A DNA stretch of 64,000 nt from positions 1 through 64,000 of the IMG/VR virus record IMGVR_UViG_3300048625_000152. The stretch is one strand, 5' to 3'. The translations under genes were made by a program, and so were the position numbers. Below are positions 14,386 to 18,919 of the stretch, in pieces (within the stretch, counting starts at the first letter, position 1; each line of letters opens with the position of its first letter). Origin of the DNA: a virus. The notes under the pieces were generated by a model that was not told where the DNA came from, searched no databases, and worked only from the letters and a program-made list of their open reading frames with translations.

Positions 14386-15553
14386 AATTATCTCAATTGA
14401 GCCTGCAATCGATCCAGTTAACCGTCCCACATTTTTGTTGGACTGGGAATTGACAATGAAGTGCAATTTGGATTGCGACTACTGCTCAACTGGCATTGAG
14501 TATGGTGGCCACGACAATAGCACAGCGCATCCTCCTAAAGACGAATGCTTAAAGACCATTGACTTCATGTTTGCTTATGCAGACAAGTACATGCAGCTAA
14601 AGCCTAAATGGCAGCGCATGGTTGTTCTTAATGTCTACGGCGGCGAAAGCATCTTTCATCCAGACATTGTTGAGATCCTTGAACAGGTTCGTGCAAGACA
14701 CACATACGAATGGCCATTAACTGTTACATGCACAAGTAATGCAGTGGCTGGCAAGAATCTTTGGGAAAAGGTTGCAAACTTAATTGATGAGTTTACAGTT
14801 AGTTTTCACAGCAGTGCATTGCCTAAACAGAGACAGCAAGTACTAGACAACATACTTTATAATAAGGCCATCGGCAGGCGCCAAAAGGTGGTGTTTGTGA
14901 TGCACAACGATCCTGTTTTGTGGGATATTAGCCAACAAGCTATCGAGTTTTGCAAGACACACAGTGTTGACTATGTAGTTAAAGCAAACGACACTCCTAC
15001 ACCACAGTGGCAATATAACAAAGAACAGTTTATTTACTTTCAAGATTACTACAAGTCGCGTACCCCTGCTAAGAGTAGAGATGCGCTAACAAAGGCATTA
15101 GATGCAGTGTCAACAGACACAGTTGGCATGGGTAAGGTAGGTCGTGGTTGTTGTGGTGGTCGAAAGCTATGCACTAACCAAGACTTACAACACCCAACAG
15201 CCTTTGTGCCACATGCAGATTTCATGGGATGGAGTTGTAGTGTTAATTGGTACTTCTTGTACATTAAACAGATCAATGGCGATGTGTACACAAACAAGGA
15301 TTGCCGTATGCGCTTTAACGGCACAGTTGGTCCAATTGGTAATTTGTCAAATGGTAATCTTATACTAGAACAAGTGCAGAAAAACATTGACAACAAAGCC
15401 ATGCCTGTTATACAATGTGCTAGAACAAGATGTATATGCGGTTACTGTGCCCCAAAAGCACAAGACCCAAAAGATTTTGAAGCTATTATGGATAAACACA
15501 TAGTTGACAAGCAAGTCAAATTTGTTTATAATAACAGCTTAGATGATAAGTAA
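14378..15553 (+). CDS. radical SAM protein with SPASM-like C-terminus
   Basis: 391 residues. C29-x3-C33-x2-C36 (CNLDCDYC) is the SAM cluster motif; VYGGES follows as the SAM-binding glycine motif. A C-terminal cysteine cluster (CARTRCICGYC, plus CCGG near residue 257) is typical of auxiliary Fe-S clusters in SPASM/twitch proteins that modify peptides. It overlaps the oxygenase gene by 8 bases. Distinct from the radical SAM protein at 5975. Confidence 0.83.
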   Translation: MNKIISIEPAIDPVNRPTFLLDWELTMKCNLDCDYCSTGIEYGGHDNSTAHPPKDECLKTIDFMFAYADKYMQLKPKWQRMVVLNVYGGESIFHPDIVEILEQVRARHTYEWPLTVTCTSNAVAGKNLWEKVANLIDEFTVSFHSSALPKQRQQVLDNILYNKAIGRRQKVVFVMHNDPVLWDISQQAIEFCKTHSVDYVVKANDTPTPQWQYNKEQFIYFQDYYKSRTPAKSRDALTKALDAVSTDTVGMGKVGRGCCGGRKLCTNQDLQHPTAFVPHADFMGWSCSVNWYFLYIKQINGDVYTNKDCRMRFNGTVGPIGNLSNGNLILEQVQKNIDNKAMPVIQCARTRCICGYCAPKAQDPKDFEAIMDKHIVDKQVKFVYNNSLDDK

Positions 15554-15677: not shown

Positions 15678-15706
15678 TTGACACTTAATGAAACTCTTGT
15701 TATAAT
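15678..15706 (+). promoter_or_regulatory. sigma70-type promoter of noncoding operon (P1)
   Basis: TTGACA (15678-15683), 17-base spacer, TATAAT (15701-15706): perfect consensus and spacing. A hairpin and boxA-like element follow within 30 bases. Confidence 0.85.
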
Positions 15707-15713
15707 AGATACA

Positions 15714-15745
15714 TGTTAAGCAATTAACAAACGTTCTTTAAAAAT
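15714..15745 (+). promoter_or_regulatory. rrn-like boxB hairpin and boxA element (first)
   Basis: GTTAA-GCAA-TTAAC (15714-15727) is a 5-bp hairpin with a GNRA loop. It is followed by GTTCTTTAAAAAT (15733-15745), very close to the NusB/S10-binding boxA of rRNA leaders (TGCTCTTTAACA in E. coli). The order promoter, hairpin, boxA is that of rrn leaders, implying host Nus antitermination on this transcript. Confidence 0.6.
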
Positions 15746-16031
15746 TTGTTTTGATGTAAAGTAAACAGGCCTACCACGCTATTAGGTTGCGTGAGTCTTG
15801 TTGAAAATTTGGTCCAGAAAGAAAGCTGGGCACTCTTGTGTAGTTTGTAAGAGACTACAGTGGCGTCTAACACCTATGAGTTAGAAACGATCTATTCCAC
15901 GTAGCAATACGCAGGAAGAAGGATTGCAATAAAGTAGAGTAACGCTCCGCTGGTTGCATGAGGGTCAACCAAAAGACGCAAGTCTTACCCGTAGCCTTGT
16001 AAGCAGGCGAAAGAGGCATCAAAATAAATTT
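15742..16031 (+). ncRNA. structured noncoding RNA 1, closed by 15-bp stem
   Basis: AAATTTGTTTTGATG (15742-15756) pairs with CATCAAAATAAATTT (16017-16031), 15 bp with one G-U. The interior is dense with hairpins: CACGC/GCGTG, CTAAC/GTTAG, CGTA-GCAA-TACG, GGTTG/CAACC, GAC-GCAA-GTC, GCCT/AGGC. No ORF is credible. The long terminal stem resembles the RNase III processing stems of pre-rRNA. No known RNA family is recognised; not 5S, 16S, tmRNA or RNase P by eye. Confidence 0.6.
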
Positions 16032-16042
16032 CTAAATAACTG

Positions 16043-16071
16043 TTGACAGCAAATGAAAAGTTTGCTACAAT
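16043..16071 (+). promoter_or_regulatory. sigma70-type promoter of noncoding operon (P2)
   Basis: TTGACA (16043-16048), 17-base spacer, TACAAT (16066-16071), again followed by hairpin and boxA. Confidence 0.8.
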
Positions 16072-16080
16072 AGCAGCTTA

Positions 16081-16116
16081 GTTAGTGATAGTGCTAACAA
16101 GCAAGTTCTTTAAAAT
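16081..16116 (+). promoter_or_regulatory. rrn-like hairpin and boxA element (second)
   Basis: GTTAGT/GCTAAC hairpin (16081-16098) then GTTCTTTAAAAT (16105-16116). It repeats the arrangement of the first leader 370 bases upstream, which makes chance unlikely. Confidence 0.6.
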
Positions 16117-16132
16117 AGATACGTATAAGAAG

Positions 16133-16245
16133 TTCTTATACACATGCACATAAAGGCGTAGGCCACGCTGATATGGTTGGATCATAGCTCGGGCTATTGC
16201 CCGGGTCGCAGGTTCGAATCCTGTGAGTGTGCAGTTGTATAAGAA
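16133..16245 (+). ncRNA. tRNA-like structured RNA 2 with long closing stem
   Basis: TTCTTATACACATGCAC (16133-16149) pairs with the 19 bases at 16227-16245 with a small internal loop. A perfect T-arm GCAGG-TTCGAAT-CCTGT (16208-16224) adjoins the 3' strand, and CGGG-CTATTG-CCCG makes an anticodon-like hairpin, but the D region is abnormal and no CCA is encoded. The 5' strand can instead pair with GTATAAGAA (16123-16131), so two folds compete. Confidence 0.5.
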
Positions 16246-16719
16246 TTTGGGGCAGTTTAATGTCCTGCAAAGAGTATGGTTCGCCCAGCTTGATGCGAAG
16301 AATAACTGTGGTGACACAGCCAAAGGAGGTATGCCTACATAACTCCGCTAGCAATAGTTCGTTTAGACAAGCCTGCTCACTCCTGTGAGGGAGCGATCAC
16401 TCAGCGACGGGTGGTTGTAACAGTGACGCAAAGTGCATAGGGAAGAACGTTTGCTTACAAGCCTGAGATTGCATCAAGGGGAACTTGAGTAGATGGAAAG
16501 TAACAGGTGGTGCTGACTTCTATGCGAAACCAACTTTGTTAATTGGTATGAGAAAGGGTAGTGTATTGGTTCGAAGGGTTGCACCTAAGAGCTCGTATGC
16601 AGTTTTAGTGGTTGGTGGACGTAGTAATACGAACATTGGTCGCAAAAGACGACTGAGTAGCTCGCAAGGCAAAAGGTACGTGGTGTGTTGTATTGTGTAT
16701 TCCAAAAGAGTATGCAGCA
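16246..16719 (+). ncRNA. structured noncoding RNA 3 (extent uncertain)
   Basis: Continues the transcript from P2. Perfect hairpins with stable loops include CTGTG-GTGA-CACAG, TCAAG-GGGAA-CTTGA and CTCA/TGAG. The only ORF (16485-16724) has no ribosome site and an unlikely protein sequence. No known RNA is recognised. Confidence 0.4.
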
Positions 16720-16837
16720 ACTGAGTCAGCACATCGCAGTAGGTTGATATAGTTCATTGGTAGAACGTCTGTCTCTTAAACAGAATGCGGCGGGTTCAAT
16801 TCCCGCTATCATTACAAAACGCAAAGACTGACTCGGT
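16720..16837 (+). other. processing-type stem around tRNA
   Basis: ACTGAGTCAG (16720-16729) and CTGACTCGGT (16828-16837) are complementary with one G-U and enclose the tRNA at 16743. This is the stem-around-tRNA layout of rrn spacers. Confidence 0.45.
16743..16814 (+). tRNA. tRNA-Lys(CTT)-like, no encoded CCA
   Basis: Stem TCTGT/ACAGA with loop CTCTTAA (CTT); T-arm GCGGG-TTCAATT-CCCGC; D-arm AGTTCATTGGTAGAAC; acceptor with one mismatch. It ends ACA rather than CCA, unlike almost every other tRNA here, so it needs host CCA addition or is decaying. Confidence 0.65.
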
Positions 16838-17149
16838 CATATGTGAAAAGCATCTAATACTTAGGGCGCAAGCTAACTAAGTCAGACGTAACTCGCAAGG
16901 TGAAATCTGTTTATGCAGGAAGTTTCGTAGCTACTTAGCGGTGGTGAATGGCTCTAAAGGTCAACGGGATAGAAAGCGTAGAATAGCATATGGCGACAAG
17001 ACTACTGCCTGTCTTTAAAAACGGCGATGCTGACAGCAGACTAGACTACTATGCAAGTAGGGTTTAGTGGAAGTCGGAAGAAAGCGGTCTCGCAAGGATC
17101 GTAATAATGTCCGAGGTGTTGTTGGGAGAGATGTATTCTCAGTCCTCCA
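16838..17149 (+). ncRNA. structured noncoding RNA 4 (extent uncertain)
   Basis: ACTTAG...CTAAGT encloses GC-GCAA-GC (16859-16882), a GNRA-capped hairpin. CTACT-ATGCA-AGTAG and TCGGA/TCCGA stems follow. C-GCAA-G caps recur near 16892 and 17093. No ORF. It belongs to the same long transcript. Confidence 0.4.
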
Positions 17150-17236
17150 CTTATATGCAAACACATTATCTAACCTGGAGTGCGGTCACAGGGCATCGTA
17201 AGGTGTGGTAGCCGTGTTAGTGTGTTTACATATAAG
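17150..17236 (+). ncRNA. structured noncoding RNA 5, closed by 16-bp stem
   Basis: CTTATATGCAAACACA (17150-17165) pairs with TGTGTTTACATATAAG (17221-17236) with one mismatch. The interior has a CGG/CCG, CAC/GTG stem. It lies 6 bases before tRNA-Cys. Confidence 0.5.
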
Positions 17237-17242
17237 ATTTAT

Positions 17243-17318
17243 GGACGGTTGGCAGAGCGTTTATGCGCCGGATTGCAAACTCGGTATAAGGTAGGTTAAA
17301 CTCCTACACCGTCCTCCA
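17243..17318 (+). tRNA. tRNA-Cys(GCA)
   Basis: Acceptor GGACGGT/ACCGTCC perfect; loop TTGCAAA (GCA); T-arm GTAGG-TTAAACT-CCTAC, with TTAAA in place of the usual TTCGA; encoded CCA. The anticodon stem has one mismatch. Confidence 0.8.
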
Positions 17319-18436: not shown

Positions 18437-18456
18437 CCCCGCCTTGTGCGGGGTTT
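18437..18456 (+). terminator. rho-independent terminator-like hairpin after tRNAs
   Basis: CCCCGC-CTTGT-GCGGGG then TTT. The T-run is short. The GGGG arm is the only ribosome-site-like sequence before the dCMP deaminase start 10 bases on, so the hairpin may also control its translation. Confidence 0.6.
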
Positions 18457-18463
18457 GCCATTT

Positions 18464-18919
18464 ATGAAAACAAAATATCAACAACTATATATGGACTGGG
18501 CACATCGTGCAGCTGAACTAAGTCATGCACGTAGGCTCAAGGTAGGGGCAGTTATTGTCAAAGACGATGTGGTTATTTACGGATACAATGGCATGCCGGC
18601 GGGATGGGATAACAACTGTGAAGAACATCCCAAGGTTGTTAACAAACAAACCTATGCCATTGAAGAAGATACAACTAGATTAGTAACACGACCTGAGGTA
18701 TTACATGCTGAATCAAACGCTATTGCAAAACTGGCGAAGTCTCCTAACGTTGGCAACGGGGCTGACTTATTTGTTACTCACAGTCCTTGTATCCACTGTG
18801 CCAAGCTCATTTTTCAGTCAGGCATTCGTCGTGTATTTTATGGTGCAAACTATCGCGATGATGCAGGAGTCCAATTCCTAAGGAGTTCGGGCATAACAGT
18901 TACACAAATTGAAGAATAA
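18464..18919 (+). CDS. deoxycytidylate deaminase-like protein
   Basis: 151 residues from ATG 18464; the longer frame from 18446 would start within the terminator hairpin. Zinc-dependent deaminase motifs: H81-A-E83 (LHAESNAI) with catalytic Glu, and C109-x2-C112 (HSPCIHCAK). The family converts dCMP to dUMP for dTTP synthesis, as in T4. A TTCG-looped terminator ends the gene. Confidence 0.88.
   Translation: MKTKYQQLYMDWAHRAAELSHARRLKVGAVIVKDDVVIYGYNGMPAGWDNNCEEHPKVVNKQTYAIEEDTTRLVTRPEVLHAESNAIAKLAKSPNVGNGADLFVTHSPCIHCAKLIFQSGIRRVFYGANYRDDAGVQFLRSSGITVTQIEE

Follow-up and report, generated by a model that had tools for sequence, protein, structure and literature searches.

Features of this phage locus suggest that the phage relies on borrowed rRNA-type Nus antitermination when it transcribes long untranslated RNA and that the stems closing its RNAs serve in processing, a reading to which we assign a probability of roughly 0.7. 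The locus lies within a window of 64,000 nucleotides (the whole stretch of DNA that was analysed), which belongs to a 240,493-base viral record, and it consists of two leaders, each with a promoter, a hairpin and a boxA, together with a series of structured RNAs and tRNAs. Its features are as follows:

15678–15706, + strand: promoter 1, TTGACA-17-TATAAT, matching the consensus at 12/12 positions and kept in four lineages
15714–15729, + strand: boxB-like hairpin 1, TGTTAA-GCAA-TTAACA, with a GNRA loop, identified from the sequence
15733–15743, + strand: boxA 1, exact GTTCTTTAAAA, identified from the sequence
15742–16031, + strand: RNA 'U', ∼290 nt, multibranched, with a 15–16 bp closing stem, based on its fold and on compensatory changes
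16043–16071, + strand: promoter 2, TTGACA-17-TACAAT, matching the consensus at 11/12 positions
16076–16102, + strand: boxB-like hairpin 2, GCTTAGTTAG...CTAACAAGC, based on its fold, with the stem altered and the pairing retained in relatives
16105–16115, + strand: boxA 2, exact GTTCTTTAAAA, identified from the sequence
16123–16141, + strand: short hairpin whose 3' strand is also able to pair with 16237–16245, identified from the sequence
16145–16233, + strand: tRNA-like domain, with a fold z of −6.45 and 10 of 41 pairs changed on both sides
16249–16680, + strand: GOLLD 5' domain, 72–99% identical to the 5' regions of other GOLLD loci and contiguous with the RF02032 match
16680–17145, + strand: GOLLD conserved 3' domain, RF02032 (cmscan, 196.1 bits, E 8.9e-54, full model 1–416)
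16743–16815, + strand: tRNA-Lys(CTT) in the GOLLD linker (ARAGORN and Rfam scan)
17147–17238, + strand: stem-closed variable insert with the stem TTATATGCAAACACATTA / TAGTGTGTTTACATATAA, which recurs in many phages
17243–17318, + strand: tRNA-Cys(GCA) (ARAGORN and Rfam scan)

Both leaders are as the original prediction described them, with promoters starting at 15678 and 16043 and an exact boxA behind a hairpin at 15733 and 16105. This 11-mer occurs nowhere else in the entire viral record, and at relaxed boxA sites elsewhere in the 64-kb window the upstream promoter never scores above 9/12. Promoter-like sites taken together show no enrichment (8 versus 6.5 expected), so our case depends on the composite element and on how it is conserved. 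A third promoter with a perfect consensus (TTGACA-17-TATAAT, 15504–15532), located at the 3' end of a radical-SAM ORF and before a tRNA-Leu (15565), has no boxA. The predicted lack of a credible coding sequence was also borne out for the + strand; the longest + strand ORF at the locus encodes 79 aa and lies within GOLLD. No rRNA family was detected in the window by Rfam cmscan, so the locus does not encode rRNA, and no convincing terminator was found downstream of U or GOLLD. There are 27 tRNA calls in the 64-kb window, and a cytidine/deoxycytidylate deaminase-like protein (PF00383) is encoded near the tRNA array at window positions 18446–18919.

A promoter–hairpin–boxA leader of this type is present across many environmental phage contigs, which appears to be a new observation; no report of boxA linked to phage tRNA arrays was found in the literature searched, where coverage was partial. 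The pattern TTGACA-N15..18-TANAAT-N15..45-GTTCTTTAAAA matches at least 119 stretches among IMG/VR contigs, whereas a version in which boxA is scrambled matches 6, corresponding to an enrichment of about 20-fold or greater. Among the matches listed, the leader is positioned upstream of tRNAs, GOLLD and other stem-closed RNAs. A tRNA starts within 60 nt of boxA in 43 of 104 of these leaders, versus 42 of 312 random places in the same tRNA-rich loci, and ORFs of at least 100 codons are depleted downstream (17% versus 37%). The interval between the −10 element and boxA folds with p<=0.05 relative to shuffles in 104/133 of the matches listed, and a stem of at least 5 bp with a GNRA cap is found in 46 of the 117 non-redundant viral leaders among them, versus 0.4% expected. 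More than 20 different stem sequences are represented among these GNRA-capped hairpins, indicating that the leader hairpin is conserved via paired change.

These data bear on the idea that the motif is a mark of strong phage promoters, or a signal for RNA processing or stability, with Nus factors uninvolved. The hairpin may shield the 5' end and 11 bases is short; GTTCTTTAAAA is also AT-rich, making another role conceivable, a point that counts against our preferred reading. However, a scrambled boxA seldom occurs in this setting, boxA is missing from the remaining strong promoter-like sites around the locus, and the phage element matches rRNA leaders in its exact boxA, in the order of its parts and, nearly, in the distance from the promoter. 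We consider a promoter mark or stability signal to be quite improbable.

The comparison with 16S leaders proposed in the original prediction revealed that GTTCTTTAAAA is identical to the boxA of Burkholderiales and other proteobacterial 16S leaders. Bacterial rrn leaders have the order boxB–boxA–boxC. When the full pattern is sought in bacterial genomes, beta- and gammaproteobacterial rRNA leaders are among its locations. A 16S 5' motif follows within 900 nt in 33 of 119 bacterial matches, with a hairpin in 29 of those 33, and many more matches run into the contig end before any 16S could appear. In Burkholderiales leaders such as GTTCTTTAAAAATATACAGCCGATAAG and relatives, the 16S gene starts ∼150–215 nt further on where the contig continues. 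Parasutterella has CTTGA-GAAA-TCAAG followed by GTTCTTTAAAAATTT, and phage leaders similarly have GTTGA-GAAA-TCAAC followed by GTTCTTTAAAA. The full promoter–boxA pattern is present in only 2 of 150 Burkholderiales-order genomes because perfect hexamers are required; boxA with a downstream CGATAAG is found in 16 of 60, mostly in rRNA leaders. Judging from this comparison, the phage host is probably a betaproteobacterium. The same 11-mer is the boxA of the Legionella pneumophila Lens CRISPR array, where adding it to the array raised pre-crRNA about 10-fold (PMC7862264). The idea that rRNA-type leaders drive long structured RNAs thus draws strong support from the enrichment of the pattern, the GNRA stems, the rRNA boxA identity and the Legionella boxA.

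The hairpin–boxA pair could instead be a phage nut-like site, used by a phage N-type protein for temporal control rather than for plain host rRNA antitermination. Lambdoid nut sites are likewise phage leader elements that pair boxA with a GNRA-type hairpin, and N proteins are too short and diverged to be searched for reliably. The GNRA-capped hairpins seen here are similar to lambdoid boxB loops, and the viral leaders have variable stems with conserved loops. In the phage element, however, the hairpin precedes boxA, as in rrn, whereas the nut order is boxA and then boxB. In addition, bacterial rRNA leaders contain the same hairpin–boxA pair, as in the Parasutterella example, and the element serves RNA genes rather than early mRNAs. 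We therefore regard a nut-like site as unlikely and favor host rRNA-type antitermination.

The original prediction recognised no known RNA family in this region, and here it was mistaken. An Rfam scan assigns most of the region to GOLLD, with a match at 196.1 bits exceeding the RF02032 gathering score of 150, and in a permissive scan of the region GOLLD and the tRNAs alone were above chance. The stem around a tRNA at 16720/16828 does exist and belongs to GOLLD, since it lies within the RF02032 alignment, as part of the GOLLD consensus. The identity of 16249–17145 as GOLLD, including the tRNA in its linker, is already known territory: GOLLD forms a 14-mer cage by cryo-EM with the linker inside, and some linkers contain tRNAs (PMC12286853). 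What GOLLD loci share with this one is a full-length 3'-domain match, a variable 5' domain, a linker tRNA and a phage tRNA array; what differs here is the rRNA-type leader, the tRNA-like stem-closed 5' cassette and the hypervariable stem-closed 3' insert.

GOLLD is present in 8 of 20 chosen leader loci. In an independent sample of 26 GOLLD loci, picked via a 5'-domain motif with boxA ignored in the selection, an exact boxA is located within 1 kb upstream in 14, and never downstream or antisense; it was not found upstream in the other 12, and 2 of the 26 have fewer than 400 bases upstream. GOLLD-like RNAs that are unannotated in the records are also present in two isolated alphaproteobacterial phages, Sinorhizobium phage Phosso (L338:1600-2545) and Caulobacter phage Magneto (L339), each with an intrinsic-terminator-like hairpin and T run close behind. 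Inspection by eye revealed no boxA leader ahead of either. Together with the 12 loci, these phages indicate that boxA does not belong to the function of GOLLD itself and that the leader is one way of expressing this RNA rather than a component of it.

A more conservative view is that this is an ordinary GOLLD–tRNA locus where boxA is a coincidence or a relic of captured host rRNA leader DNA, and the proximity of GOLLD to tRNAs is indeed typical and previously described (PMC12286853). A coincidental boxA is very unlikely given the scrambled-boxA, 26-locus GOLLD and GNRA-hairpin counts, and a relic is unlikely because the hairpins are maintained by paired changes across many phages. Overall, we consider this view highly improbable.

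The first leader feeds RNA U, where 15742–15757 pairs with 16016–16031 to close a predicted multibranched structure of 12 helices. The inverted repeat predicted at 15742/16017 is real: the minimum free energy of U has a z of −4.84, and 0 of 200 shuffles folded equally well. In an alignment of four lineages, 98.9% of cells pair and 4 pairs are compensated on both sides, the set being 4 close sequences in which the relatives are 91–95% identical to the window. Pairing fell to 34–44% when the partners were slid, and the covariation score was matched by 5 of 500 shuffles. We found no matches to U in Rfam at E<1, none in GenBank phages, and no homologues beyond the four lineages in either a DNA scan of viral contigs or a profile search across all loci. 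Locus L134 has the leader and closing stem of U joined directly (...AAATTTGTTTTGA-ATCAAAATAAATTT...). This empty site indicates that U is an insertable or removable module. As an RNA with no Rfam match that is fed by an rRNA-type leader, U appears to be new.

The second leader is followed by a tRNA-like cassette (16121–16250) at the 5' end of GOLLD. The domain has a 7-bp acceptor, a D-like arm with an invariant AGGCC loop, an anticodon-like arm, a long variable arm and a canonical T arm, and no CCA. The inverted repeat predicted at 16133/16227 is real, and outside the cloverleaf-like fold a 13-bp stem (16130–16142 with 16236–16248) encloses the domain. Comparison with related phage contigs, a check named in the original prediction, thus revealed covariation both in U and in this domain, for which the alignment consists of 7 sequences. 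Of the tRNAs predicted in the unit, tRNA-Lys and tRNA-Cys stand, whereas the ARAGORN call at 16145–16232 is tRNA-like. We rejected 16145–16233 as a true tRNA: ARAGORN alone calls it, as tRNA-Pro, and cmscan found no match to the Rfam tRNA model. A covarying tRNA-like domain at the GOLLD 5' end appears to be new.

Different stem-closed inserts (L056, L058, L074, L119, L177) occupy the position between boxA and GOLLD in other phages. Several of these open with a short hairpin a:b in which strand b can also pair with another copy of a further downstream. The resulting a:b / b:c layout, also that of the hairpin at 16123–16141, is found in 23 of 110 viral leaders among the matches listed, versus 0.55 in shuffles, and co-transcriptional partner exchange would be its natural reading.

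A hypervariable insert at the GOLLD 3' end also appears to be new. The predicted 17150/17221 inverted repeat is present (17150–17230), with an interior of ordinary stability (z −1.21). The stem TATATGNAAACACATT / AGTGTGTTTACATATA occurs in many phages with unrelated interiors, either immediately after GOLLD or after a leader. Interior identity is ∼0.35–0.6 versus relatives that are mostly 80–100% identical over GOLLD, and the sequence beyond the insert differs too. A target search with the interior gave no match in GenBank phages and, within the viral record, recovered nothing beyond the interior itself and some weak, short matches. The interior GCAGGAGGACAATGCCTCTGTA... is found in two different closing stems (L066 and L074), which suggests that interiors are exchanged among stems.

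Several further features were observed in other phage loci. One phage tRNA array contains three promoter–hairpin–boxA leaders inside 1.3 kb (L118:5932-7239), and a group I intron match (L125:4941-5132) starts ∼155 nt past a boxA leader, upstream of a tRNA-Glu. Phage-borne tmRNA genes, with permuted or alpha- and beta-type Rfam matches, are present in related tRNA arrays (L093:754-1160, L162:5430-5863), and L060 also has a tmRNA call, with the tag ANDSVYALAA. A candidate family of stem-closed RNAs of ∼200–260 nt follows boxA leaders in five phage tRNA arrays (L088, L104, L122, L128, L162). Its pattern is GGGTTACC...GACGGA...GGCAGTAATGA...GACGGT, with conserved loops, variable hairpin stems and no Rfam match. 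In L088, L104 and L128, a second stem-closed RNA lies downstream of this candidate, with the closing stem ATTAGTT.../...AACTAAT and the inner pattern GTAACY...ATAAACGGTA...GTTGAG...GCAAATAGTGC.

In the mechanism that we propose, the strong sigma-70 promoters would produce transcripts that open with a hairpin (in leader 1, one with a GNRA cap) and the host rRNA boxA. Host NusB–S10(NusE)–NusA–NusG–SuhB would load on boxA to give a Rho-resistant RNA polymerase, which would then traverse ∼1.5 kb of structured, untranslated RNA: U, the tRNA-like cassette, GOLLD, the variable stem-closed insert and the tRNAs. The inverted-repeat stems would close each RNA in the manner of pre-rRNA leader–trailer helices, probably for folding, protection and release by RNase III and RNase P. 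In E.coli, 30S formation requires the leader–trailer helix itself, independently of RNase III (PMC10250234), and the stems here may therefore serve folding as much as cutting. A search of the phage record, which may be a fragment, found no NusB, RNase III or S10 genes.

The locus shares with a bacterial rrn operon a strong promoter, a hairpin, an identical boxA, inverted-repeat stems closing RNAs, and tRNAs in the transcript; it differs in being phage-borne and in carrying GOLLD, U, the tRNA-like domain and tRNAs rather than rRNA. As in pre-rRNA leader–trailer helices, complementary flanks close U and the tRNA-like domain, but these closing stems, at 13–16 bp, are shorter than rRNA stems. CRISPR arrays with an upstream boxA are known (Stringer et al., as cited in PMC7862264), and in these boxA (GTTCTTTAAAA in Legionella Lens) likewise stands before a long untranslated RNA; here the downstream genes are instead phage tRNAs and giant RNAs, accompanied by a boxB-like hairpin and closing stems. 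GOLLD, boxA and leader–trailer stems all have precedents. In the literature searched, coverage of which was incomplete, we found no account of phages combining them, of so broad a distribution of the leader, of U or of the exchangeable cassettes.

More broadly, many large phages may use host-mimicking, Nus-dependent rRNA leaders to transcribe tRNAs and swappable stem-closed cassettes in fixed closing stems, with the cassettes attached to GOLLD at its 5' end, linker and 3' end being variable cargo carried or displayed by the cage. We offer this as a tentative possibility. GOLLD ranks among the largest known structured RNAs, and an rRNA-type leader provides a testable mechanism for its expression, as well as an explanation of how long untranslated RNAs could be produced by phages despite Rho. 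BoxA leaders also provide a search handle for unannotated structured RNAs in phage tRNA arrays, having led to U and at least one further candidate family, and the contents of the cage could be approached concretely through the variable cassettes fused to GOLLD.
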